The notes under the pieces: generated by a model
The model's input: only the letters and a program-made list of their open reading frames with translations
Databases searched by the model: none
What the model was told of the DNA's origin: nothing
DNA from: Streptomyces solicavernae
GTDB lineage: Bacteria > Actinomycetota > Actinomycetes > Streptomycetales > Streptomycetaceae
Direction: 5' to 3'
Assembly: GCF_029968095.1 (NCBI RefSeq)
Contig: NZ_JASCIR010000004.1
Span: 186,001 to 250,000 of the forward strand
DNA: 64,000 bases
Program-made: the position numbers and the translations under genes
Shown: positions 3,518 through 39,862 of the stretch, piece after piece
Position numbering within the stretch: the stretch's first letter is position 1
Layout of the letters: every line of letters begins with the position of its first letter

Positions 3518-3540
3518 GCCGAGCGGGAGCGAGGCACGGC

Positions 3541-3585
3541 CGGGGCCGCGTACGCCGGGGCCGCGTACGCCGGGGCCGCATACGC
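3541..3585. repeat. Three copies of a 15-bp repeat
   Basis: The unit CGGGGCCGCGTACGC is repeated head to tail at 3541, 3556 and 3571, with one base changed in the third copy. It lies just after the stop of the preceding gene and before a terminator hairpin. Confidence 0.9.
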
Positions 3586-3586
3586 C

Positions 3587-3624
3587 GAGGGCGCCCCCTT
3601 TCCGCGAAGGAAGGGGGCGCCCTC
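3587..3624. terminator. Bidirectional terminator between convergent genes
   Basis: GAGGGCGCCCCCTT pairs with AAGGGGGCGCCCTC (arms 3587-3603 and 3609-3624, loop about 5 bases). It sits between the plus-strand Lys/Glu-rich gene and the minus-strand pyk gene, as expected for a shared terminator. Confidence 0.85.
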
Positions 3625-3645
3625 AGTGCGTGGTTGACGGCGGCG

Positions 3646-5073
3646 TCAGGCGTTCTCGCCGCCCAGGTGGTGGACCCGGACCATGTTGGTGGTGCCGGGG
3701 ACGCCGGGGGGCGAGCCGGCGGTGATGATCATGGTGTCGCCGGCGTTGAAGCGCTTCAGCTTCAGCAGCTCGGCGTCGACCAGGTCGACCATCGCGTCGG
3801 TGTTGTCGACGTGCGGGACCAGGCGGGACTCCACGCCCCAGCTCAACGCGAGCTGGTTGCAGGTGGACTGCTCGCTGGTGAAGGCGAGGATCGGCTGCGC
3901 GGCGCGGTAGCGGGACAGGCGGCGCGCGGTGTCGCCGGACTTGGTGAAGGCGACCAGCGACTTGGCGTCCAGGAAGTCGGCGATCTCGCAGGCGGCACGG
4001 GCCACCGAACCACCCTGCGTACGCGGCTTCTTGCCCGGTACGAGCGGCTGCAGGCCCTTGGACAGCAGCTCCTCCTCGGCCGCGGCGACGATCTTCGACA
4101 TCGTCCGGACCGTCTCGATCGGGTACGCGCCCACGCTCGACTCGGCCGACAGCATCACCGCGTCCGCGCCGTCCAGGATCGCGTTGGCCACGTCGGAGGC
4201 CTCGGCGCGCGTGGGGCGGGAGTTGGTGATCATCGACTCCATCATCTGGGTCGCGACGATCACCGGCTTGGCGTTGCGGCGGCACATCTCCACGAGCCGC
4301 TTCTGCACCATCGGGACCTTTTCGAGCGGGTACTCGACGGCCAGGTCGCCGCGGGCCACCATGACCGCGTCGAAGGCGGCGACGACGTCCGCCATGTTGG
4401 CGACCGCCTGCGGCTTCTCCACCTTGGCGATGACGGGGACGCGGCGGCCCTCCTCGTCCATCACCTTGTGGACGTCCTTGACGTCGTTCGCGTCGCGCAC
4501 GAAGGACAGGGCGACCATGTCGCAGCCCATCCGCAGCGCGAAGCGCAGGTCCTCGACGTCCTTCTCGGACAGGGCGGGGACGTTCACGGCCGCCCCGGGC
4601 AGGTTGATGCCCTTGTGGTCGGAGATGACACCGCCCTCGATGACGATCGTGCGGACCCGGGGGCCGTCGACGTCGGTCACCTTGAGTTCGACGTTGCCGT
4701 CGTTGATCAGGACCTGGTCCCCCTTGGCGACATCGCCGGGGAGGCCCTTGTAGGTCGTACCGCAGAGGGACTTGTCGCCCGGGACGTCCTCGGTGGTGAT
4801 GGTGAACTCGTCACCGCGCACCAGCTCTACGGGGCCCTCGGCGAAGGTCTCCAGACGGATCTTCGGGCCCTGCAGGTCGGCGAGGACGCCGACGGCTCGG
4901 CCCGTGTCCTTGGCGGCCTCACGCACCCGGTCGTAACGCTCCTGGTGCTCCGCGTGGGTGCCGTGGCTGAAGTTGAAGCGGGCCACGTTCATCCCGGCCT
5001 CGATGAGCGCTTTCAGCTGCTCGTACGAGTCGACGGCGGGGCCCAGAGTGCAGACGATTTTGGAACGGCGCAT
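3646..5073 (-). CDS. pyk: Pyruvate kinase
   Basis: A 475-residue cytoplasmic enzyme converting phosphoenolpyruvate plus ADP to pyruvate plus ATP. The start is set at the ATG giving MRRSKIVCTLGP, the usual N-terminus; an in-frame ATG 42 bases upstream lacks family similarity. The strand-1 motif RFNFSHG, the B-domain, the active-site segment MVARGDLAVEYPLEKVP and the signature around TRAEASDVANAILDGADAVML are all present at normal length. The common GDLGVE motif reads GDLAVE here. The C-terminal regulatory domain is complete. It lies 74 bases downstream of ackA on the same strand. That gap contains a GGAATATTCC palindrome (5104-5113), so pyk may also have its own promoter. Confidence 0.97.
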   Translation of the reverse strand: MRRSKIVCTLGPAVDSYEQLKALIEAGMNVARFNFSHGTHAEHQERYDRVREAAKDTGRAVGVLADLQGPKIRLETFAEGPVELVRGDEFTITTEDVPGDKSLCGTTYKGLPGDVAKGDQVLINDGNVELKVTDVDGPRVRTIVIEGGVISDHKGINLPGAAVNVPALSEKDVEDLRFALRMGCDMVALSFVRDANDVKDVHKVMDEEGRRVPVIAKVEKPQAVANMADVVAAFDAVMVARGDLAVEYPLEKVPMVQKRLVEMCRRNAKPVIVATQMMESMITNSRPTRAEASDVANAILDGADAVMLSAESSVGAYPIETVRTMSKIVAAAEEELLSKGLQPLVPGKKPRTQGGSVARAACEIADFLDAKSLVAFTKSGDTARRLSRYRAAQPILAFTSEQSTCNQLALSWGVESRLVPHVDNTDAMVDLVDAELLKLKRFNAGDTMIITAGSPPGVPGTTNMVRVHHLGGENA

Positions 5074-11396: not shown

Positions 11397-12964
11397 TGCA
11401 GCGGCAAACGGACCGTGAACTCCGCGCCGCCCTCCGCGGACTCCGTCACCTCGACCGAGCCGCAGTGCCGGTGCACCGCCTGCCGGACCAGGGCGAGCCC
11501 GATGCCGCGCCCCGGACCCTTGCCGGACCAGCCGCGCCGGAACACGTCCGCGCCCGCGGGGATGCCGGGACCGTTGTCGCCGACCCGGAGCAGCAGCTCC
11601 GCGTCGGCGGCGCGCGCGGTCACCGTAACCCGGCCGCCCCGCGTCCCGGTCGCCGCGTCCACCGCGTTGTCGATCAGATTGCCCAGGACCGTGACCAGGT
11701 CACGCGGCGGCAGCGAGTCCGGGAGCAGCCCGTCGTCCATCCGGCTGTCCGCGGACACCACCAGCTCGACGCCGTGCTCGTTGGCCTGCGCCGCCTTGCC
11801 GAGCAGCAGCGCCGCGAGCACCGGCTCACCCACCGACGTCACCACCTGGTCGGTCAGCGCCTGCGCCAGCTCCAGCTCCGCCGTCGCGAACTCCACGGCC
11901 TCGTCCGCGCGGCCCATCTCGATCAGCGAGACCACGGTGTGCAGCCGGTTCGCCGCCTCGTGCGCCTGCGAGCGCAGCGCCTGCGTGAAGCCCCGCTCGT
12001 GGTTCAGCTCGCCGGTCAGCGCCTGCAGCTCCGTGTGGTCGCGGAGCGTGACGACGGTGCCGCGCCGCTCGCCCCCCGACACCGGCGAGGTGTTGAGCAC
12101 GACCACCCGGTCACCGGTCAGATGCACCTCGTCGACCCGCGGCTCGGTGGCGAGCAGGGCGCCCGTCAGCGGCGCGGGCAGCCCCAGCTCGGCGATGCCC
12201 CGGCCGACCGCGCCGTCCCCGAGGCCGAGCAGCTCCCGCGCCCCGTCGTTGATCAGCGCGATCCGCCGCTGCCCGTCGAGCATGAGCAGCCCCTCGCGCA
12301 CCGCGTGCAGCGCCGCCTGGTGGTACCCGTGCATCTGCGACAGCTCGGCCGCGTTCATGCCGTGCGTGTGCCGGCGCAGGCGGGCGTTCACCACGTACGT
12401 ACCGAGCCCGCCGAGCGCCAGCGCCGCCGCGGCGACGCCGATCAGCGCGGTCAGCTGCTCCCGTACCTGCTCGGTGATCTCCTCGATGGTGATCCCCGCA
12501 CTGACCAGGCCGACGATCCGCCCACGGTCCTCGATCGGCGTCACCACCCGCACGGAAGGACCGAGCGTCCCGGTGTACGTCTCGTGGAACGTACGGCCCG
12601 CAAGGGCGGGCTTGATGTGCCCGAGGAACTCCTCCCCGATGTTGACCGGGTTGGGGTGCGTCCAGCGGATCCCGTCCGTGTCCATGATCGTCACAAAGTC
12701 CACGTCGGTCGCCCGCTGCACCTTCTCCGCGTACGGCTGCAACGTCCGGCTCGGATCCGGCCCCCGCACCGCCTCCCGCACCGACGGCGACTCGGCGACG
12801 GCCCGCGCCGTCCCCTCCGCCTGCCGCTGCGCCGCGCCCTCGGCCTGCCGGTGCGCGGTGACGTACGCGAACACCGCACACCCGGCCACGACCAGCGCCA
12901 CGAGCACGACCTGCATGGCGAACAGCTGCGCGGCGAGACTGCGGGGGCGGGGGACACGGGGCAT
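11393..12964 (-). CDS. CitA/DcuS/DctB-like sensor histidine kinase
   Basis: A 523-residue membrane kinase. The start at the ATG of MPRVPRPRSLAAQLFAMQ is chosen because a transmembrane helix follows directly (about 12-35). The longer frame upstream runs antisense through the tnpB gene. An extracytoplasmic Cache/PAS sensor domain (about 40-165), a second helix (about 168-190) and a cytoplasmic PAS (about 205-300) follow. The H-box is SQAHEAANRLH (His near 335), with N-box NLIDNAVDAA and G-boxes VGDNGPGIP and GRGIGLALV. The architecture is that of citrate or C4-dicarboxylate sensors. Only 32 bases separate its start codon from the end of an orphan tnpB, so its native promoter may be altered. Confidence 0.9.
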   Translation of the reverse strand: MPRVPRPRSLAAQLFAMQVVLVALVVAGCAVFAYVTAHRQAEGAAQRQAEGTARAVAESPSVREAVRGPDPSRTLQPYAEKVQRATDVDFVTIMDTDGIRWTHPNPVNIGEEFLGHIKPALAGRTFHETYTGTLGPSVRVVTPIEDRGRIVGLVSAGITIEEITEQVREQLTALIGVAAAALALGGLGTYVVNARLRRHTHGMNAAELSQMHGYHQAALHAVREGLLMLDGQRRIALINDGARELLGLGDGAVGRGIAELGLPAPLTGALLATEPRVDEVHLTGDRVVVLNTSPVSGGERRGTVVTLRDHTELQALTGELNHERGFTQALRSQAHEAANRLHTVVSLIEMGRADEAVEFATAELELAQALTDQVVTSVGEPVLAALLLGKAAQANEHGVELVVSADSRMDDGLLPDSLPPRDLVTVLGNLIDNAVDAATGTRGGRVTVTARAADAELLLRVGDNGPGIPAGADVFRRGWSGKGPGRGIGLALVRQAVHRHCGSVEVTESAEGGAEFTVRLPLQ

Positions 12965-12996: not shown

Positions 12997-14247
12997 CTAA
13001 TTGGCATCGCTCGTCCCAGCGGGAGGAGACGCCCGGACTCCGCGCCGACGACCGGCGCTCCTTCCGGGCTTTCCTGCTTCGACGCCGACCGCCCGCCCGG
13101 AGAGCCTCCGCTCGGGTCCTACGTCCGCTCCACAGGCAGACACCGCCAGCCCGGCGGCCAGTGTGGTCCGTGCCGCGTTCACGTCCCGGTCGTGATGAGC
13201 CCCGCAGGCGGGACACACCCAGTTCCGGATGCGCAGCGGCAGGTCCGCGACCAGGTGGCCGCAGTGCGAGCAGGTCTTGCTGGTGGGGCAGAACCGGTCG
13301 ATCACGATCAGTTCGCGCCCGTACCAGTGGGATTTGTACGTCAGCATGAACCGCAGCCGCCCCCACGAGGCATCGGAGATCGCCCCCGCGAGCCGGGGGT
13401 TCCTCAGCATGTTCCGGACGGCAAGGTCCTCGATCACGATCGTTTGGTTCTCACGAACGAGACGCGTGGACAGCTTGTGCAGAAAGTCGTTGCGACGGTC
13501 GGCGATCCTGGCGTGTATCCGGGCGGCCTTGGCGCGGGCCTTGTCGTGGTTCCTGGAACCGGGCTGTTTGCGGGACACCGACCGCTGCGCCCTCGCGAGC
13601 CTGGCCTGCGCGTTCTTCCCGAACCGGGGATTGGGGACCTTCTCGCCACTGGAGAGGGCCACCAGTGAGTGGATTCCGGCGTCCACGCCGACCGCCGACG
13701 CCACCGGGGGCAGCGCCGCCACCTCATCGGTCATGAGGAGCGACACGAACCACCGGCCAGAGCGGTCCTGTGTGACGGTCACCGTCGTCGGGGACACGCC
13801 GGGCGGCAGGGGGCGCGACCAGACGATGTCCAGGGGCTCGGACATCTTCGCGAGCCGGAGGCGCCCGTCGCAGTAGCGGAAGCCCGAAGCCGTGTACTCC
13901 GCCGACCTCTTGGACCGCTTCCTCGACTTGAACCGTGGATGGCGGCTGTGCCCGGAGAAGAACGCCGAGAACGCGGCCTGGAGGTGCCGCAGACTCTGCT
14001 GCAGCGGCACCGAAGACACCGCGCGGAGGTAGGCGTACTCCTCCGTCTTCTTCCAGGCGGTGAGCAGAGCCGACGTCTCCTGACAGGTCACGCGCTCCCC
14101 GCGCACGGCCCAGGCCTCGCGCCGCGTCTGCAGCGCCATGTTGTAGACGCGGCGCACGCAGCCGAACGTGCGTGACAGCTCCGCCGCCTGCTCCTCGGTC
14201 GGATGGAAGCGATACCTGAAGGCGCGCTTCACCTGTTGTGTCCGCAC
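12997..14247 (-). CDS. tnpB: Orphan TnpB (IS200/IS605 superfamily RNA-guided nuclease), apparently intact
   Basis: A 416-residue TnpB/IS1341-type protein. The N-terminal helix-turn-helix and WED-like region begin RAFRYRFHPTEEQ. The RuvC triad looks complete: Asp189 (GVDAG), Glu273 (VIEDLAV) and Asp355 (HDRDVNAAR), with zinc ligands Cys326, Cys329, Cys345 and Cys348 between the last two. No tnpA lies beside it. The start is GTG 14247 or the GTG 15 bases downstream. Known for the family: the 3' end of the gene and the element's right end encode the omega RNA, and its guide comes from flanking DNA. That would place the guide in the short gap before the kinase gene. The element's ends were not resolved. 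Confidence 0.88.
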   Translation of the reverse strand: MRTQQVKRAFRYRFHPTEEQAAELSRTFGCVRRVYNMALQTRREAWAVRGERVTCQETSALLTAWKKTEEYAYLRAVSSVPLQQSLRHLQAAFSAFFSGHSRHPRFKSRKRSKRSAEYTASGFRYCDGRLRLAKMSEPLDIVWSRPLPPGVSPTTVTVTQDRSGRWFVSLLMTDEVAALPPVASAVGVDAGIHSLVALSSGEKVPNPRFGKNAQARLARAQRSVSRKQPGSRNHDKARAKAARIHARIADRRNDFLHKLSTRLVRENQTIVIEDLAVRNMLRNPRLAGAISDASWGRLRFMLTYKSHWYGRELIVIDRFCPTSKTCSHCGHLVADLPLRIRNWVCPACGAHHDRDVNAARTTLAAGLAVSACGADVGPERRLSGRAVGVEAGKPGRSAGRRRGVRASPPAGTSDAN

Positions 14248-31515: not shown

Positions 31516-33117
31516 TCAGTGCTTGTTCTTGCCCTTGGCCGCCTTGACGTTCACGCCCGCCCAGGCCGCGTCCACGCCCTTGTACTCGGCGGAGTCCGCG
31601 CCGTACAGGTCCTTGGCGGCGTCGAGCGTCGCCGTGCGGGCCTTGGCGTAGTCGGTGTTGGACGTCATGTACGTGGTGAGGGCCTTGAACCAGATCTTCT
31701 CGGCCTTGTCCCGCCCGATGCCGGTGACGGGCTTGCCGTCGGCGGTCGGCGAGTCGTACTTCACGCCGTTGATCTCCTTCGCGCCGCTGCCCTCGGACAG
31801 CAGGTAGAAGAAGTGGTTGGCGACGCCCGAGGAGTAGTGGACGTCGATCTGGCCGATGCCCCTGTACCAGCTGTCCTTGGACTTGCCGTCCTTGCTCGGC
31901 TTGTCCATGTAGCGCAGCGGGGTGCCGTCGCCGCGGATGTCGATCTTCTCGCCGATCAGGTAGTCGCCGACGTCCTCCTTGTTGTTCGCGGAGAACTCGA
32001 CGGCGGAGCCGAAGATGTCGGAGGTCGCCTCGTTGAGACCGCCGGACTCGCCGCTGTAGATCAGCCCTGCGGTGTGGGAGGTGACGCCGTGGGTCATCTC
32101 GTGCGCGGCCACGTCGATGGACGTCAGCGGCTTGGCGTTGCCCTCGCCGTCGCCGTACGTCATGCAGAAGCAACTGTCGTCCCAGAAGGCGTTGACGTAG
32201 TTGTTGCCGTAGTGGACGCGGGAGTACGCGCCGACGCCGTCGCCCTTGATGCCGTCGCGGCCGTGCACGTTCTTGTAGTAGTCCCAGGTGAGCGCGGCGC
32301 CGTAGTGCGCGTCGGCGGCCGCGGTCTCCTTGTTGGCGGGGGTGCCGTCGCCCCACTCGTCGTCGTCACCGGCCACCAGGGTGCCCTGGCCCGAGGTGCC
32401 GCCCCCGAGGTCGTACGTCTTGTGGTCGCCGCGCCCGGTGTCGGTGAGCGAGAAGCCGCTGGACTCCTGCTTGGTGCCGAGCTCCACGTCGCCGCTGTAC
32501 TGGGTGTGGCCGGCGCCGGTGCGGATGTCGTCCCACTGGAAGATCTTCTTGCCGGAGCGGGCGTCCGTGACGACGTGCAGCCGGCTCGGGGTGCCGTCCT
32601 TCTTGGTCGACTTGACGACCTTCTCGTACGCGAGGCGCGGGGTGCCGCTCGCCGCCCAGACGACGGCGCGGGCGCCCTTCGGCGCGGCCTTGGCGCGCGC
32701 GGTGTCGACCTTCAGGTCACCGGCGTGCGCCTTCGTGACGCCCTCCGTCCTGCGGGACTTGGTCTCGTGCACGACCAGGTCGCCGCCGAGGACGGGCAGT
32801 CCGTCGTACGTGCGCTCGTAGCGGGTGTGGACGCTGCCGTCGCGGTCCTTGACGACGTCGCGGACGACGAGCTTCTCGGCCGAGGAAAGGCCCAACTCCT
32901 TCGCCGTACGGGCCTTTTCGGCGTCCGCGTCGCGCAGCAGCTCGGCGCGCTGCGAGGCGGAGAGCTTGGTGGGCGACGCGCCGGGGGTCTTCTCGGCGGT
33001 GGGCGCCGCCGAGGCGGTGGTGAGGCCGGCGCCGATCAGGGCGGCGGCGACGATCGCCGTGCCGGCGGCGGTGGCGGCTCGTCTGGTGGACACGTGGCGC
33101 GTTATGTGGGGCGACAC
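31516..33117 (-). CDS. Secreted M4 (thermolysin-like) neutral metalloprotease
   Basis: 533 residues from GTG 33117. A signal peptide (about 12-38, ending TTASA) and a pro-region with an FTP/PepSY domain (about 45-195, including TRYERTYDGLPVLGGDLVV) precede the catalytic domain. Zinc ligands are His339 and His343 in HEMTH with Glu340 catalytic, and Glu363 in GLNEATSD. The C-terminal domain includes DVHYSSGVANH. The Cys pair in DSCFCMTYGD is typical of the family. It ends soon after the peptidase domain. It is upstream-neighboured by a longer paralogue with near-identical core DNA. Confidence 0.95.
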   Translation of the reverse strand: MSPHITRHVSTRRAATAAGTAIVAAALIGAGLTTASAAPTAEKTPGASPTKLSASQRAELLRDADAEKARTAKELGLSSAEKLVVRDVVKDRDGSVHTRYERTYDGLPVLGGDLVVHETKSRRTEGVTKAHAGDLKVDTARAKAAPKGARAVVWAASGTPRLAYEKVVKSTKKDGTPSRLHVVTDARSGKKIFQWDDIRTGAGHTQYSGDVELGTKQESSGFSLTDTGRGDHKTYDLGGGTSGQGTLVAGDDDEWGDGTPANKETAAADAHYGAALTWDYYKNVHGRDGIKGDGVGAYSRVHYGNNYVNAFWDDSCFCMTYGDGEGNAKPLTSIDVAAHEMTHGVTSHTAGLIYSGESGGLNEATSDIFGSAVEFSANNKEDVGDYLIGEKIDIRGDGTPLRYMDKPSKDGKSKDSWYRGIGQIDVHYSSGVANHFFYLLSEGSGAKEINGVKYDSPTADGKPVTGIGRDKAEKIWFKALTTYMTSNTDYAKARTATLDAAKDLYGADSAEYKGVDAAWAGVNVKAAKGKNKH

Positions 33118-33243
33118 TCTTTACTCCCTGGATGTGGGGGTGTCCGGGCGGCGTTGGGCCCATCCGGACGGGGAAGTACCTGGTGCTGGTGCCGTGTTGC
33201 GGCTGTGCCGTGCGGGGAGAGAGTGTCATTGGCGGCGCGTACA

Positions 33244-33270
33244 TGTCAGGGGGTGTCGCCAGGTTGACCG
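33244..33270 (-). promoter_or_regulatory. Shared upstream motif, protease gene 1
   Basis: On the plus strand TGTCAGG, 10 bases, then AGGTTGACCG. A very similar arrangement (TGTCAGG, 11 bases, AGGTTGGCCG) lies upstream of the second M4 protease gene. It is about 130 bases from the start codon. Nearby TTGACC/TTGACC half-sites overlap it. A common regulator is inferred only. Confidence 0.45.
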
Positions 33271-33362
33271 AATCTTGACCAATACTCGTGGCGCGCTGTC
33301 CGTTATGCGAACTGGGTGGCGTCCCCGGCACGTTGCCGCAACGCCACCCAGTCTGCCCCGAT

Positions 33363-33438
33363 CCGTACGGGCCGGGTTCCGTACGGGCCGGGTTCCGTAT
33401 GGGCCGGGTTCCGTATGGGCCGGGTTCCCTACGGGCCG
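33363..33438. repeat. 16-bp tandem repeat after the second protease gene
   Basis: CCGTACGGGCCGGGTT at 33363 and 33379, CCGTATGGGCCGGGTT at 33395 and 33411, then a truncated copy to 33438. The array abuts the stop codon of the minus-strand protease gene. The intergenic region 33118-33362 otherwise shows only the putative promoter motif of protease gene 1. Confidence 0.9.
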
Positions 33439-33439
33439 T

Positions 33440-35470
33440 TTACGGGAAGGTCAGCTTCCAGCCGTTGATCTGGCCCGTGTCCCGCGCCGCCCGGTCCTGC
33501 ACCCGCAACTTCCAGGTCCCGGCGGCCCGTTCACCGGAGGCGTCCACCGTGTACGTGGTCCGCACGTCGTCCGCCGAGTCCGAGGACTGGTACGGCTTCA
33601 GGCTGTACACCGACCCGTCCGGCGCGACCAGGTCGACCACCAGGTCGCCGCGCCAGGTGTGCGCGATGTCCACGCCCACCTTCAGGCCGGCCGGCGCGTT
33701 CCCCGTCCGGTCGGCCACGGAGATGGACGACGTGACCGCCGGCCCGTTGTCCGGGATGGCCACGTCGGCGGTGTTCTCGTACACCGTGCCGTCGCCCGGG
33801 GTGCCGCCGCCGGACCGCTCGCCCACGTTGACGCCCGCCCACGCGTCCTGCACCGCCTTGTACTCGGCGCTCGACGTGCCGTACAGCTCACCGGCCACCG
33901 CGAGAGTCCCGGCGCGCGCACCCGCGTAGTCCGTGCGGGAGTGGAACTTGGTCGTCAGCGCCTTGAACCAGATCAGCGCGGCCTTCTCGCGGCCGATGCC
34001 GGTGACGGGCAGCCCGTCCGAGGTCGGCGAGTCGTACGCGACGCCGTTGACGGTCTTCTTCCCGCTGCCCTCGGACAGCAGATAGAACCAGTGGTTGGCC
34101 GGGCCCGAGGAGTAGTGCACGTCGATGTTGCCGATGCCCGCGTACCAGGCGTCCTTCGACGCGCCGTCCCGGCTCGGCCGGTCCATGTAGCGCAGCGGGG
34201 TGCCGTTGCCGCGGATGTCGATCTTCTCGCCGACGAGATAGTCGCCCACGTCCTCGGAGTTGGCCGCGTGGAACTCGACGGCGGCCGCGAAGATGTCGCT
34301 GGTCGCTTCGTTGAGGCCGCCGGACTCGCCGCTGTAGATCAGGCCCGCGGTGTGGGAGGTGACGCCGTGGGTCATCTCGTGCGCGGCCACGTCGATGGAC
34401 GTCAGCGGCTTGGCGTTGCCCTCGCCGTCGCCGTACGTCATGCAGAAGCAGCTGTCCTGCCAGAAGGCGTTGACGTAGTTGTTGCCGTAGTGGACGCGCG
34501 AGTACGCGCCGACCCCGTCCCCGCGGATGCCGCTCCTGCCGTGCACATTCTTGTAGTAGTCCCAGGTCAGCGCGGCCCCGTAGTGCGCGTCGGCGGCCGC
34601 GGTCTCCGCGTGGGACGGGCTGCCGTCGCCCCAGGTGTCGTCGGCCCCGCTGAACAGGGTGCCCTGGCCCCATGTGCCGCGGTTCAGGTTGTACGTGCGG
34701 TGGTCGCCGCGGCCCGTGTCGGTGAGCGTGTAGCCGCTGCCCGACTGCGCGGTGCCGAGCGGGACTTGACCGCTGTACTGGGTGTTTCCGGTGCCGTTGT
34801 GCACGGCCTGCCGCTCGAACAGCTTCTTTCCGGTGCGGGCGTCGGTCACGACGTGCAGTTCGTTCGGCGTGCCGTCCTTCTGCAGCCCGCCGACGACGGT
34901 CTCGTACGCGAGCACCGGCTTGCCGCCGTGGCCCATCCAGACGACCTTGCGGGGCGCCTTCCGGGCCTCGGTCCGCGTCGAGCCGTCGGCCTTCGCGAGC
35001 CCGAGGGCCTGGCGTTCGGCGGCCTTCGCGGTCACCTCGGCCCGGGTGTCGACACCGCTCAGCCGGGCCCGGCTCGCCTTCGCCACGGCCTCGGTGCGGC
35101 CGGCCTCGCTCTTGCTCACGACCAGGTCGCCGCCGAGGACGGGGAGTGAGTCGTACGTGCGCTCGTAGCGGGTGTGGGTGGTGCCGTCGCGGTCCTGGAC
35201 GACGTCCCGGACGACGAGCCGCTCCTTCGCGCCGAGTCCCAACTCCTTGGCCGTACGGGCCTTTTCGGCGTCCGCCTCGCGCAACAGCTCGGCGCGCTCG
35301 GACGGGGAGAGCTTGGCGGGCAGCGCGCCCGGGTCGGCCTTGCCCGCGGCCGCGGCGGGCCCGGACTGCAGGCCCACGGAGAGCAGGGCGGCGGTGGCGA
35401 GCAGCGCGCCGACGGCGCCGGTGCGTCTGCGGCGGGCGAAGGGGGAGGTGCGTGGGGAGGTGCGTGTCAC
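33440..35470 (-). CDS. Secreted M4 metalloprotease with C-terminal P domain
   Basis: 676 residues from GTG 35470, chosen for AAGGAG eight bases upstream; the frame is open further but no signal peptide would fit. Signal peptide (about 15-42, ending GPAAAA), FTP/PepSY pro-region, and M4 catalytic domain with HEMTH, GLNEATSD and DVHYSSGPANH follow. It ends with a P/proprotein-convertase beta domain of about 115 residues (ADVAIPDNGPAVTSSISV to INGWKLTF). The catalytic core DNA is almost identical to the neighbouring protease. The P domain probably aids substrate or wall binding. Confidence 0.94.
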   Translation of the reverse strand: MTRTSPRTSPFARRRRTGAVGALLATAALLSVGLQSGPAAAAGKADPGALPAKLSPSERAELLREADAEKARTAKELGLGAKERLVVRDVVQDRDGTTHTRYERTYDSLPVLGGDLVVSKSEAGRTEAVAKASRARLSGVDTRAEVTAKAAERQALGLAKADGSTRTEARKAPRKVVWMGHGGKPVLAYETVVGGLQKDGTPNELHVVTDARTGKKLFERQAVHNGTGNTQYSGQVPLGTAQSGSGYTLTDTGRGDHRTYNLNRGTWGQGTLFSGADDTWGDGSPSHAETAAADAHYGAALTWDYYKNVHGRSGIRGDGVGAYSRVHYGNNYVNAFWQDSCFCMTYGDGEGNAKPLTSIDVAAHEMTHGVTSHTAGLIYSGESGGLNEATSDIFAAAVEFHAANSEDVGDYLVGEKIDIRGNGTPLRYMDRPSRDGASKDAWYAGIGNIDVHYSSGPANHWFYLLSEGSGKKTVNGVAYDSPTSDGLPVTGIGREKAALIWFKALTTKFHSRTDYAGARAGTLAVAGELYGTSSAEYKAVQDAWAGVNVGERSGGGTPGDGTVYENTADVAIPDNGPAVTSSISVADRTGNAPAGLKVGVDIAHTWRGDLVVDLVAPDGSVYSLKPYQSSDSADDVRTTYTVDASGERAAGTWKLRVQDRAARDTGQINGWKLTFP

Positions 35471-35803
35471 GGCTGACTCCTTCTGCGGGCCGCGGATCGC
35501 GCGGCCGACGGGAACGGACGGTGGGTGGCCGCCCGGGCAGAACAAGGCAGTGCACGGTGCACGTGGGGGGTGCGCGACGAACGCGCCGGCGGTGAAGTGC
35601 CGTGAAGCGTGGGGGTGCTGACACGTTCGGTGCAGGGGAAGCGTGCCAGCGCAGCGGTGACGTGTCAGGACCGCGTCACAAGGTTGGCCGGAAATGGTCC
35701 GTTGGGCGGTGGAGGATGTTCGGTATGCGGACGTGCGCACGTGGCGCCACGAGAGCTTCCCCTACCCGCCCCCCCCTACCCGCCCCCTGCCCGGCCGGGC
35801 ACG
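35471..35803. other. Promoter region of the second protease gene; no gene seen
   Basis: 333 bases between the protease start and the response-regulator remnant. It contains the TGTCAGG (35663-35669) and AGGTTGGCCG (35681-35690) motif shared with protease gene 1. A C-rich stretch near 35762-35780 follows. No open frame with a ribosome binding site is convincing. Confidence 0.5.
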
Positions 35804-36021
35804 TCAGCCGAGAATCCCCCGGTCGTACGCCGTGGCCACCGCCGCCGCACGGTCCTTCACGCCCAACTTGCCGTAGATGTGCGTCAGATGCGTCTTGACC
35901 GTGGCCTCGCTGATGAACAGCTCCGCGGCGATCTCCCGGTTCGGGGTGCCCTTCGCGACCAGGGCATCCGGCCCCGGTCGATCACCGCGATCCGGTCGCA
36001 GAGGCGCTGCGCCTCCTCCAT
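35804..36021 (-). pseudogene. Fused remnants: ABC ATPase 3' piece joined to a LuxR response-regulator C-terminus
   Basis: Reading the minus strand, 36021 to about 35971 encodes MEEAQRLCDRIAVIDRG, the continuation of the ABC ATPase that breaks off at 37847. From about 35967 to the TGA at 35804 a different frame encodes ALVAKGTPNREIAAELFISEATVKTHLTHIYGKLGVKDR..., the DNA-binding end of a NarL/LuxR response regulator. The junction near 35963-35971 is out of frame. The simplest reading is a deletion that removed the rest of the ATPase gene, the permease, the sensor kinase and the receiver domain of a four-gene operon. Confidence 0.8.
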
Positions 36022-36042
36022 CCGATAGCTAGCGGGGGGGGA

Positions 36043-36062
36043 CCCGTGCCTTTAGGCATGGG
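36043..36062 (+). repeat. Left-end hairpin of the IS605-type element
   Basis: CCCGTGCC pairs with GGCATGGG (one G-T pair) around a TTTA loop, 21 bases inside the left boundary. It matches the position expected for the structure recognised by the Y1 transposase. Confidence 0.8.
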
Positions 36063-36144
36063 GGGAATCGCTTCTCAGGGCTGCTCTGACCTCAACTGTG
36101 CCCACGGGTCTGCACTGTTGACCCGAGCCAACTAGATACATGGC

Positions 36145-36600
36145 ATGTGTATAGTGATCGTCATGGCCGTGGCCAGGAAGGTTCGCCGGTACTCCGGCGG
36201 TGTGTATGACTTGGGGCTCCACGTGGTGTGGTGCCCCAAGTACCGTCGTCGCGTGCTCGGTGGCCGGGTCGCGGTCCGCCTGGACGAGCTGATCCGGCAG
36301 AAGGCGGCAGAGAAGGGCTGGGAGATCATCGCTCTTGAGGTGATGCCCGATCACGTGCACCTGTTCGTCAAGCACGAGCCGAAGGCTTCCGCCTCCTACG
36401 TGGCGAACCAGTTCAAGGGCTTCACCTCCCGCGTGCTCCGCTCGGAGTTCCCGCATCTCAAGAGCCAGATGCCTACCCTGTGGTCCTCTTCGTTCTTCGT
36501 CGCCTCGGTCGGCGCGGTCAGCGCCGACACGGTGGAGAAGTACATCAACACCCAGTGGGAACGCCCCTGGACGAAGAAGCAGAAGGAGGGACAGGCGTGA
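36145..36600 (+). CDS. tnpA: IS200/IS605 Y1 transposase TnpA
   Basis: 151 residues (or 145 from ATG 36163). The HUH motif is MPDHVHLFV, and the catalytic Tyr is in VEKYINTQW near the C-terminus. YDLGLHVVWCPKYRRRVL is a typical N-terminal strand. Length and motifs are normal, so it appears functional and could still move the element. It ends with GTGA overlapping the tnpB start. Confidence 0.93.
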   Translation: MCIVIVMAVARKVRRYSGGVYDLGLHVVWCPKYRRRVLGGRVAVRLDELIRQKAAEKGWEIIALEVMPDHVHLFVKHEPKASASYVANQFKGFTSRVLRSEFPHLKSQMPTLWSSSFFVASVGAVSADTVEKYINTQWERPWTKKQKEGQA

Positions 36601-37798
36601 TACGCGCATACAAGTTCCTCCTTCGCCCCACCACCCGCCAGGCGCAGGCCCTCGGCGAGATGCTGCGGGATCACTGTTCCCTCTATAACGGGGCCTTGCA
36701 GGAACGCCGCGACGCCTGGCGGCACGCCTCGAAGGCGAGCATCAAGTACGGGCAGCAGTCGGCGCAGCTCAAGGACGTTCGCGCCTTCGATCCCGAGCGG
36801 CAAGGCCGCTGGTCGTTCAGCTCGCAGCAGGCGACGTTGCGCCGCCTGGACAAGGCGTTCCAAGCCTTCTTCCGACGCGTGAAGGCCGGAGAAAAGCCCG
36901 GCTATCCCCGCTTCCGGGGCGTCAACTGGTTCGACACCGTGGACTTCCCCAAGGACGGCGACGGCTGCCGCTGGGACTCCACCCCGCACGACCCCGTCAC
37001 CCGCGTGCGCCTGCAAGGCGTCGGGAATGTCCGCGTGCACCAGCACCGACCGGTGAAGGGTCGCGTTAAGACCGTCAGTATCAAGCGTGAGGGCCGACAG
37101 TGGTATGTCGTCCTCGCCTGCGACAACGTCCTCGCCGAACCACTCCCGGCCACGGACGCGGTCACCGGCATCGACATGGGTGTCACGCACTTCCTCACCA
37201 CATCTGAGGGTGTACACGTCGCCAATCCACGGCATGGCAAGCGCAACGCCGATGCCCTCGCCCAGGCTCAGCGGGCCCTCAAGGCGTTTGGCCGCCGGAA
37301 GCGGGAGAACCGCACCGCAAAGCACCGCCGGGCCGTGGAGAAGGTCGCCGCGCTGCACCGCAAGGTACGGCGCCAGCGCACCGACCACGCACACAAGACC
37401 GCGCTTGCCCTGGTCCGCGACTACGACCAGATCGCACACGAGCGGCTGAACATCGCGAACATGGTCCGCACCCCCAAGCCGAAGCCCGACCCCGAGATCC
37501 CCGGCACGTTCCTGTCGAACGGTGCCGCCTCGAAGGCCGGGCTCAACCGCAGCATTCGGGTTGGGGGGTGTTCCTGGGCATCCTCGCGCAGAAGGCTGAA
37601 AGCGCCGCTCGTGTACTAATCCCGGTGGATCCCCGCAACACCTCCCGCACCTGCCCCGAATGCGGGCACGTGGACGGCGAGAACCGCGACGGCGAAAAGT
37701 TCCAGTGCACCGCCTGTGACCACCGCGACCACGCGGACCGGGTAGGCGCCTGGAACGTCGCACTCAGGGCCGGGCTGGTCCTTCCCGACGTGGCCTAG
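36597..37798 (+). pseudogene. tnpB: tnpB of the IS605-type element, frameshifted
   Basis: Starts at GTG 36597 behind GAAGGAGGG. The first frame runs to a stop at 37617-37619 and includes the RuvC Asp in GIDMG and Glu in IAHERLNI. After LNRSI (about 37555) the frame is lost. The correct continuation GVFLGILAQKAESAARVL plus the zinc-finger CPECGH / CTACDH and third RuvC Asp (HADRVGAWN) is read in another frame to 37798. The shortfall around ATTCGGGTTGGGG is explained by a loss of about seven bases (inference from the usual family sequence). The encoded protein would lack its zinc finger and last catalytic Asp. Confidence 0.88.
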
Positions 37799-37814
37799 CC
37801 ACCGACAGGAGAAG

Positions 37815-37836
37815 CCCCCCGGATTTATCCGGGGGG
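37815..37836 (+). repeat. Right-end hairpin of the IS605-type element
   Basis: CCCCCCGGAT pairs with ATCCGGGGGG around a TT loop, ten bases from the right boundary. It is followed by GGAGGAGTCAC at the junction. In this family the right end is also the 3' end of the omega RNA scaffold, so the guide would be read from the ABC gene flank. Confidence 0.8.
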
Positions 37837-37846
37837 GAGGAGTCAC

Positions 37847-38410
37847 GAAATGTGTGACGAGCAGGACGGTCACACCACTCGCCCGCACCTCCTCGATCAG
37901 CTGCCAGGTGTCCCGGCGGGCCCGCGGGTCGAGGCCCGTGGTCAACTCGTCGAGGACGACCACGCGGGGCCCGCCGATCAGGGCGAGCGCGATGAAGAGC
38001 CGCTGCTTCTGGCCGCCGCTGAGCTTCCCGAACCGGGCGCCCAGCTTCTCGTCGAGCCCGAGCCGCTCGGCCAGCGGCCGCCAGTCGGCCGGCTTCTCGT
38101 AGAACGCGCTGTACAGCTCAAGCGCCTCGCGCACGGTGAGCTTCGCCTGCAACTCGCTCTCCTGCAGCTGGGCGCCGAGCAGCTGGGTGACTTCGCGGTG
38201 GTCCGCGACCGGGTCGAGTCCGGCGACGCGCACGGACCCGGCGTCGGGGACGCGCAGCCCCTCCACGCACTCGACAGTGGTCGTCTTGCCCGCGCCGTTC
38301 GGGCCGAGCACCCCGAAGATCTCCCCCTCCTCCACGGCGAACGACACCCCGTCCACGGCGGGCCTGCCCCCGTAGACCTTCCTCAGGTCCCTCACTTCGA
38401 TGACTGCCAT
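37847..38410 (-). pseudogene. ABC transporter ATPase, interrupted 5' part
   Basis: From ATG 38410 (MAVIEVRDLRKVYGG) the frame has Walker A GPNGAGKT, signature LSGGQKQR, Walker B VVVLDELTTGLDP and the H-loop VTHF, then enters the insertion sequence. It resembles daunorubicin-resistance-type (DrrA/CcmA-like) ATPases of drug or lipid exporters. The remaining piece continues at 36021. Without it and without the permease (absent) the system cannot work. The frame continues artificially about 230 bases into the element. Confidence 0.85.
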
Positions 38411-38486: not shown

Positions 38487-38565
38487 GGGGCGGTACGACG
38501 GTGTTCTCGGGGCGGTACGACGGTGTGACGGGGCGGTACGACGGTGTGACGGGGCGGTACGACCG
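38487..38565. repeat. 21-bp tandem repeat, four copies
   Basis: GGGGCGGTACGACGGTGT plus GAC repeats at 38487, 38509, 38530 and 38551 (the first 22 bases long, the last diverging after GACC). It lies between the ABC ATPase start and the L,D-transpeptidase gene, where promoters of both divergent genes would be expected. Confidence 0.9.
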
Positions 38566-38608
38566 TGCGGTGACGTTTCCCCCGGACCGCACTCGTCGTT
38601 GTACACGC

Positions 38609-39862
38609 GTGACACAGCTTGCGACACGCGCCCGGCGCGCACCGGCCCGTAGGGCCGCCGTACTGACATGGGTGGGCCTCGCCGCCCTCCTCGCCGCCCT
38701 CACCGGCTGCTCCGGCAGTGGGACCGGCTCGCTCGACGCGATGTTCGGCAAGGGCACCGCCGAGGACGCGATCCGGATCAGCCCCGGCCACGGCGAGCGC
38801 AGCGTCAGCGCCGACCAGAAGCTGGAGGTCGAGGTCCCGGCCGGGCGGCTTGAGTCCGTCAAGGTGGTCAAGTTCCAGGACGCGCAGGACAGCGCCGTAC
38901 CGGGCGAGATCTCCGAGGACGGCCTGAGCTGGGAGCCGAAGGACCAGCGGCTCGCCCTCGCCGCCAAGTACACGGTGGACGCGGTCGCCCTCGACGGCCA
39001 CGGTCGGCGGCACGCCCGGCACGTCACGTTCACGACGTACGTACCGGACGAGCGGTTCGTCGCGTACGTGAAGCCGGAGAACCGCTCCACCGTCGGCACC
39101 GGAATGATCGTCTCCCTGGAGTTCAACCGGGAGATCGAGAACCGCGAGGCCGTCGAGCGCGCCGTGCGGGTGACCGCGGACCCGCCCGTGAAGATCGCCG
39201 GGCACTGGTTCGGCAAGACCCGCCTGGACTTCCGCCCCGAGGACTACTGGCAGCCGGACACCCGGGTCACCGTCGACCTCGGCCTGCGCGACGTGGAGGG
39301 CGCGGAGGGCGTGTTCGGGCTGCAGCAGAAGCAGTTCGGCTTCACCGTCGGCCGCAGCCAGGTCTCCCGCGTCGACGCCGCCGAGCACACCATGGAGGTA
39401 CGCCGGGACGGCAAGCTCCTGTCGACCCTGCCGATCACCGCGGGCGGCGGCAAGAACACCACGTACAACGGCAAGATGGTGATCTCCCAGATGCTCGACG
39501 TGACCCGGATGAACGGCGCCACGGTCGGCTTCACGGACAGCGACGGCAAGGGCGAGTACGACATCCCGGACGTGCCGCACGCCATCCGCCTCACCACCTC
39601 CGGCACGTTCCTGCACGGCAACTACTGGACTCCGGCCGCCACGTTCGGCAACGAGAACGTCAGCCACGGCTGCGTGGGCCTGCGGGACATCAAGGGCGGC
39701 AGCTCGGACACCCCGGCGGGCTGGTTCTTCGACCGGAGCCTGATCGGGGACGTGGTGGAGGTCGTCAACTCCAAGGACGAGAAGGTCGATCCGGACAACG
39801 GGCTGAGCGGCTGGAACATGGACTGGAAGAAGTGGAAGGCGGGCTCGGCGCTGCACGGCTGA
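38609..39862 (+). CDS. Lipoprotein L,D-transpeptidase, copy 1
   Basis: 417 residues from GTG 38609 (VTQLATRARR); no clear ribosome site, so leaderless translation is possible. A longer frame upstream only encodes the tandem repeat. The lipobox is LTGC at about residue 36. Two Ig-like domains (about 45-250) precede a YkuD catalytic domain (about 250-400) with HGNYW and the active-site SHGCVGLRD (Cys near 355). Such enzymes make 3-3 cross-links between meso/LL-DAP residues of peptidoglycan. A close paralogue follows directly. Confidence 0.92.
   Translation: MTQLATRARRAPARRAAVLTWVGLAALLAALTGCSGSGTGSLDAMFGKGTAEDAIRISPGHGERSVSADQKLEVEVPAGRLESVKVVKFQDAQDSAVPGEISEDGLSWEPKDQRLALAAKYTVDAVALDGHGRRHARHVTFTTYVPDERFVAYVKPENRSTVGTGMIVSLEFNREIENREAVERAVRVTADPPVKIAGHWFGKTRLDFRPEDYWQPDTRVTVDLGLRDVEGAEGVFGLQQKQFGFTVGRSQVSRVDAAEHTMEVRRDGKLLSTLPITAGGGKNTTYNGKMVISQMLDVTRMNGATVGFTDSDGKGEYDIPDVPHAIRLTTSGTFLHGNYWTPAATFGNENVSHGCVGLRDIKGGSSDTPAGWFFDRSLIGDVVEVVNSKDEKVDPDNGLSGWNMDWKKWKAGSALHG

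Follow-up and report, generated by a model that had tools for sequence, protein, structure and literature searches.

Our data indicate that one segment of the Streptomyces solicavernae genome (positions 35804-38410 of the window, i.e., the whole 64,000-nucleotide stretch of contig NZ_JASCIR010000004.1 analyzed here) is very probably the remnant of a four-gene operon broken by two separate lesions. The original operon would have encoded a DrrA-like ABC ATPase, an ABC-2-type permease, a sensor histidine kinase, and a NarL/LuxR response regulator. One lesion appears to be an internal deletion of ~2.92 kb that runs from the 3' part of the ATPase gene to the helix-turn-helix (HTH) region of the regulator gene, and the other appears to be the insertion of an IS200/IS605 element beside a CCAT tetranucleotide within the codons for the ATPase H-loop. 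The operon is presumably nonfunctional now. The features of the locus are as follows:

33440-35470, minus strand: M4 metallopeptidase gene (Pfam Peptidase_M4 and M4_C), a flanking locus marker
35804-35965, minus strand: 3' end of a LuxR/NarL-type response regulator gene, i.e., the last 53 codons and stop, with the HTH (Pfam GerE 6.7e-16, match 35965-35808; 96% identical to the intact locus L059)
35965-35969, no strand: deletion junction, from the alignment to L059
35966-36021, minus strand: further ATPase codons (MEEAQRLCDRIAVIDRGR) to the deletion junction, the first 53 bases equal to the L059 ATPase gene
36018-36021, plus strand: CCAT target tetranucleotide adjoining the left end of the insertion sequence (IS), from alignment to L059 and other IS loci
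36022-37846, plus strand: IS200/IS605-family element of 1825 bp in the ATPase H-loop codons, its ends set from relatives at other loci and from the empty site in L059
36145-36600, plus strand: tnpA, Y1 HUH transposase (Pfam Y1_Tnp 2.6e-38, match 36145-36597)
36600-37798, plus strand: tnpB, frameshifted near 37555 (OrfB_IS605 and Cas12f1-like TNB domains in different frames)
37847-38410, minus strand: 5' part of an ABC exporter ATPase gene, 188 codons, to the H-loop (VTHF) (Pfam ABC_tran 2.7e-26, match 38410-37856; 92% DNA identity to the intact L059 gene)
38600-39862, plus strand: L,D-transpeptidase (YkuD) gene (Pfam YkuD and Big_10), a flanking locus marker

An earlier note on this DNA described the minus strand as the 5' part of an ATPase gene, an IS, the next ATPase codons, and an out-of-frame LuxR-type end, and both the Pfam matches and the translations bear out this layout. 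The regulator tail and the adjoining ATPase codons occupy different frames, and the translations MEEAQRLCDRIAVIDRG and ALVAKGTPNREIAAELFISEATVKTH...GILG* were both found. The window keeps parts of the operon's first and last genes only, and the four-gene order is therefore not seen in the window itself. The ATPase remnant and the regulator tail are each still an open segment, from which a short product is possible on sequence grounds. In addition, a short GGGGCGGTACGACGGTGT-like unit was seen by eye in tandem at window positions 38487-38567, 5' of the L,D-transpeptidase gene.

The intact form of the operon can be found in near relatives. When the flanking M4 peptidase gene was compared with 392 genomes of the genus, the closest match was in genome G289 (92%), the next match listed being 81%. 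At the corresponding locus in G289 (L059), the M4 peptidase and L,D-transpeptidase genes that flank the window remnant enclose a complete set of minus-strand genes, i.e., the ATPase (15291-14383), a 260-aa permease (end at 13604), a 454-aa kinase (start set by us; end at 12213), and the regulator (12223-11591). All four genes are also present in Streptomyces sp. B-S-A6 (L074) and S. boluensis (L075), for which the ATPase part shows 95% and 92% protein identity, respectively. The order ATPase, permease, kinase, regulator, which the earlier note had supposed from what is usual in such operons, occurs in L059, L074, and L075 near the same flanking genes, and the alignment with close relatives that it proposed as a check thus located an intact operon at the same locus in all three. 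We rejected an unrelated origin of the LuxR piece, since L059, L074, and L075 carry this piece as the 3' terminus of the operon, in keeping with the operon origin first assigned to it.

The surroundings of the operon vary. Among 72 loci with a matched L,D-transpeptidase gene, this gene lies beyond the regulator and on the same strand in 66; in six (L059, L074, L075, L085, L086, and the window), it precedes the ATPase gene and is on the other strand (i.e., relative to it the operon is flipped). A gene at ~31516-33070, adjacent to the M4 peptidase gene at lower coordinates, resembles it (window 31516-35731), and in a cross-comparison either gene matches the L059 counterpart of the other at 77-78%. 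The gap between the M4 peptidase and regulator genes measures ~2.8 kb in L059 (8750-11591), where methyltransferase-like and WXG-like ORFs were seen by eye, and also in L075; it measures ~500 bp in L074 and ~73 bp in the window (35732-35803). Given ~73 bp in the window versus ~2.8 kb in L059 and L075, a further stretch was probably lost here.

Comparison of the window's own genome (G000) with the 3701-nt L059 operon defined the deletion. At the locus, matches covered operon nucleotides 1-567 (92%), 565-617 (100%), and 3540-3701 (96%). Because only nucleotides 1-617 and 3540-3701 are kept, ~2.92 kb is missing relative to L059, in good agreement with the loss of about 3 kb that the earlier note had considered probable; the missing part comprises the 3' part of the ATPase gene, the permease and kinase genes, and ~three quarters of the regulator gene (its 5' part). 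Identity to the L059 ATPase gene ends at position 35969 and identity to the L059 regulator gene begins at position 35965, which places the junction at 35965-35969, within the previously proposed interval of about 35963-35971. The earlier note recommended looking for microhomology where the deletion ends meet, and the picture is mixed: TCGCC stands at both ends in L059 and L075 but is absent from L074, and the window junction is not a simple joining product. Therefore, perfect microhomology cannot be claimed, and a clean microhomology-mediated deletion was rejected.

The inserted element belongs to the IS200/IS605 family, as it has a Y1 HUH TnpA, TnpB domains, no target duplication, and a fixed short target. 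It is like other IS200/IS605 elements with tnpA and tnpB in its Y1 transposase, its TnpB domains, its lack of duplication, and the fixed tetranucleotide at its left end, but differs in having a frameshifted tnpB. The OrfB_IS605 (1.2e-18) and Cas12f1-like_TNB (5.9e-18) domains are in two frames, which marks a broken copy, and near 37555 the gene is 7 nt shorter than in four relatives (alignment to L155-L158). The right end of the IS is GAGTCAC, and inverted repeats were seen by eye near both ends. CCAT stands to the left of IS relatives in 8 of the 9 loci with a readable left end (L155, L157, L158, L161, L162, L164, L165, and L168; the exception is L156), a count that leaves out L159, L160, L163, L166, L167, L257, and L288, where the left end is not readable. 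L059 represents the empty site, with its sequence undisturbed and the IS accounting for no target duplication. Since at least 53 L059-ATPase-identical bases lie between the IS and the deletion junction, and since the IS site in L059 is undisturbed, we take the insertion and the deletion as separate events, as had been proposed from the window sequence. A single IS-caused event was rejected, the junction being 53 bases or slightly more from the IS end.

The same insertion site has been used twice. A comparison of the window IS with 250 fetched loci (some of which overlap, and some of which lack the operon) revealed relatives in two others, L257 (genome G228) and L288 (genome G254), at 75-76% identity. 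At these two loci, GAAGTGGGTGAC or GAAGTGGGGGAC comes after the right end GAGTCAC, i.e., the IS ends at the same ATPase nucleotide (codons 188/189) in the same orientation as for the window IS. No match to the permease, kinase, or regulator was found near L257 and L288. The sister genomes G228 and G254 are ~96% identical at the locus and share one event. When 13 IS-bearing loci were compared with the window copy, the window IS grouped with L155-L158 (82-90%) and the G228/G254 IS with L161, L162, and L164-L168 (82-87%), with 75-78% identity between the groups; because the two IS fall in separate groups, the insertions look independent.

CCAT occurs at 21 sites on both strands of the L059 operon, of which 3 are in the ATPase gene, and its density in the window scales to ~34,500 sites per 8 Mb. 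Coincidence is plausible, given that the IS family appears to require CCAT and that such sites number only 21 in the L059 operon. If this dispensable operon takes two insertions, their falling on one site would amount to a ~1-in-20 coincidence, which was noticed post hoc and is suggestive, not compelling. Given that TnpB is described as an RNA-guided nuclease (PMC8612924), homing is a testable alternative, in which a TnpB guide matching the conserved ATPase H-loop site would favor gain or retention of the IS at the same nucleotide across species. In favor of homing, G228 and G254 carry a different IS200/IS605 lineage that ends at this very nucleotide with matching orientation, at 75-76% identity to the window IS and in a separate identity group. 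Nevertheless, we consider it improbable: with an apparent need for CCAT and only 3 of the 21 operon sites in the ATPase gene, it would be no great surprise for two insertions to meet at one site of such a dispensable operon, tnpB in the window carries a frameshift, the G228/G254 element is known by its right end only, and a search of 392 genomes listed no exact match to the junction pattern except in this gene. With at most 1 mismatch allowed, the pattern matched in 17 of these genomes, exactly only in the window's own genome and G228; the remaining 15, G254 among them, had 1 mismatch. A reversed control pattern gave 12 matches in 11 genomes. The window IS was matched at 3 of the 17 junction-pattern loci, i.e., L313 (the window's own site), L320 (G228), and L321 (G254). 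With the IS at 3 of 17 pattern loci and 12 matches for the reversed control, we rejected the idea that these IS target the H-loops of ABC ATPases in general.

It could also be argued that the cell has an intact operon, of which the assembler skipped 2.9 kb near the IS. The genome is a draft (7.04 Mb, 96 contigs, 89% complete), so that an operon copy in unassembled DNA is possible, and the junction is only ~53 bp from the IS. However, the junction does not coincide with the IS end, and a search of the own genome with the window IS at E<=1e-60 returned one match, itself; without a second copy at this threshold, repeat-driven misassembly is unlikely. In addition, a search with the L059 operon found no second copy of the operon in the draft genome, the missing 2.9 kb being on no other contig; the remaining matches were 64-93% identical over at most about 640 bp, as would be expected of paralogues. 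Similar collapses are also present in the single-contig genomes G044, G151, G170, G228, and G254. Collectively, these data leave an assembly artefact very unlikely and favor the reading of the region as an operon broken by a deletion and an insertion.

The fate of the operon was surveyed across the genus. The ATPase (E<=1e-60) was found in 155 of 310 sampled Streptomyces genomes, the own genome included (78/150, 36/80, and 41/80). We examined 155 loci from 154 other genomes in sets of 78 (to which G126 contributes two), 73, and 4, with a kinase coverage cut-off of 0.80 in the set of 78 and 0.75 in the set of 73; L059, L060, L065, and L068 were judged by four-gene presence and order only. This analysis uncovered that 141 of the 155 loci are intact (71, 66, and 4), 9 are collapsed (L047, L173, L222, L224, L249, L256, L257, L288, and L299), and 5 are unclear. 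The unclear loci are L192 (kinase match 75%; probably intact if the 0.75 kinase cut-off is applied), L225 (no nearby regulator), L227 (a 59% relative without a permease match), L276 (contig end), and L286 (kinase match interrupted by a stop). Apart from L257 and L288, which have theirs in common, the collapsed loci have different breakpoints. We regard the loss in the window as one of several independent losses. G126 carries an intact copy (L223) and a collapsed copy (L224) in one genome. In L299 (G252), the ATPase gene after residue 149 runs into what by eye resembles an IS5/IS4-like transposase gene, i.e., a different IS type.

Because sampling was by the ATPase, loci lacking its 5' part are missed. 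The regulator HTH end was found in 81 of 150 genomes, five of which had no ATPase match. One of these five, L302 (G013), is a collapse in which ATPase residues 1-26 are followed by the whole regulator; L303 and L304 are only 52-54% regulator relatives, and in L305 and L306 a contig end falls inside the operon. Among loci from named strains, which partially overlap with the main genome sample, 72 of 80 are intact. The others comprise L140 (S. swartbergensis), which is collapsed; L112, L120, and L121, with contig ends; L134, with no kinase or regulator in the remaining 3.9 kb; L132, with no regulator found; L108, whose kinase match contains a stop; and L115, with the regulator in two pieces.

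The remnants in the window show few nonsynonymous changes. Counted at positions on which L059, L074, and L075 concur, 13 synonymous and 4 nonsynonymous changes in the ATPase remnant are specific to the window, and the same comparison gave 9 and 5 own changes for L059 and 7 and 4 for L074. For the regulator remnant, synonymous and nonsynonymous differences number 6 and 1 relative to L059, 9 and 0 relative to L074, and 10 and 4 relative to L075. Since these numbers, small as they are, reveal no relaxed constraint in the remnants, we place the loss late on the window branch. The operon loss looks recent from the mostly synonymous change in the remnants, and the few nonsynonymous changes in the ATPase and regulator pieces sustain the recent loss that the earlier note had suggested; both lesions postdate the split from the nearest relatives found here. 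That the truncated ATPase or an HTH-only protein is still active is extremely unlikely, for although the remnants have no nonsynonymous excess (a pattern equally expected from recent loss) and the regulator HTH end is kept in 6 of the 9 collapsed loci (L047, L173, L222, L224, L249, and L256), the examined stretch yielded no regulator in the other 3 (L257, L288, and L299), the ATPase and HTH pieces are out of frame, the IS splits the ATPase pieces, and the permease and kinase are gone. An always-kept regulator end as a sign of function was likewise rejected, as the regulator was not found in L257, L288, and L299.

As to what was lost, the L059 ATPase had drrA (TIGR01188) as its best NCBIfam model at 238.6 bits, below the curated cut-off of 312.45 and hence outside DrrA membership, and the L059 permease had weak DrrB-type matches below the cut-off (146.9 for the DrrB family TIGR00025). 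The best models for the intact kinase and regulator were MadS and NarL, respectively, both below cut-off. The operon therefore resembles the DrrA/DrrB daunorubicin-type ABC exporters in its best ATPase model and weak DrrB-type permease match, but differs in that it scores below the curated cut-offs, and for this reason no family membership is claimed. Judging from its gene content, its most likely role was that of an exporter under its own two-component system; it may have exported a membrane-active or toxic compound, with induction via that system.

Judging from its neighborhood position, the SCO5454/SCO5455 pair of Streptomyces coelicolor may be the operon's counterpart. The pair has the same kinase-then-NarL-type-regulator order. 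A published table gives it as a kinase/NarL pair without a name (PMC9739842), and in a predicted regulatory network SCO5454-SCO5455 ranks among the top four hubs (PMC3224704). Excerpts of the literature, looked up by the locus tags SCO5451 to SCO5455 only, yielded no tested function for this pair. In Bacillus subtilis, LnrJK-LnrLMN is described as an amphotericin/linearmycin-related two-component system and ABC transporter (PMC7472640); here too a two-component system acts with an ABC exporter, a likeness by analogy.

Collectively, the sequence comparisons characterize this region as an ordinary, well-supported recent gene loss of a kind that is recurrent in the genus, and the loss may have been neutral or mildly favored. 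It provides a clear case of a recently lost exporter-sensor operon, and the survey reveals that the same operon decays repeatedly across Streptomyces via deletions and insertion sequences. This repeated decay offers a handle on the exporter's role, since species that keep the operon can be compared with close relatives that have just lost it. In addition, the use of one site by two IS lineages makes it possible to test concretely whether IS are directed to the same host site by TnpB.
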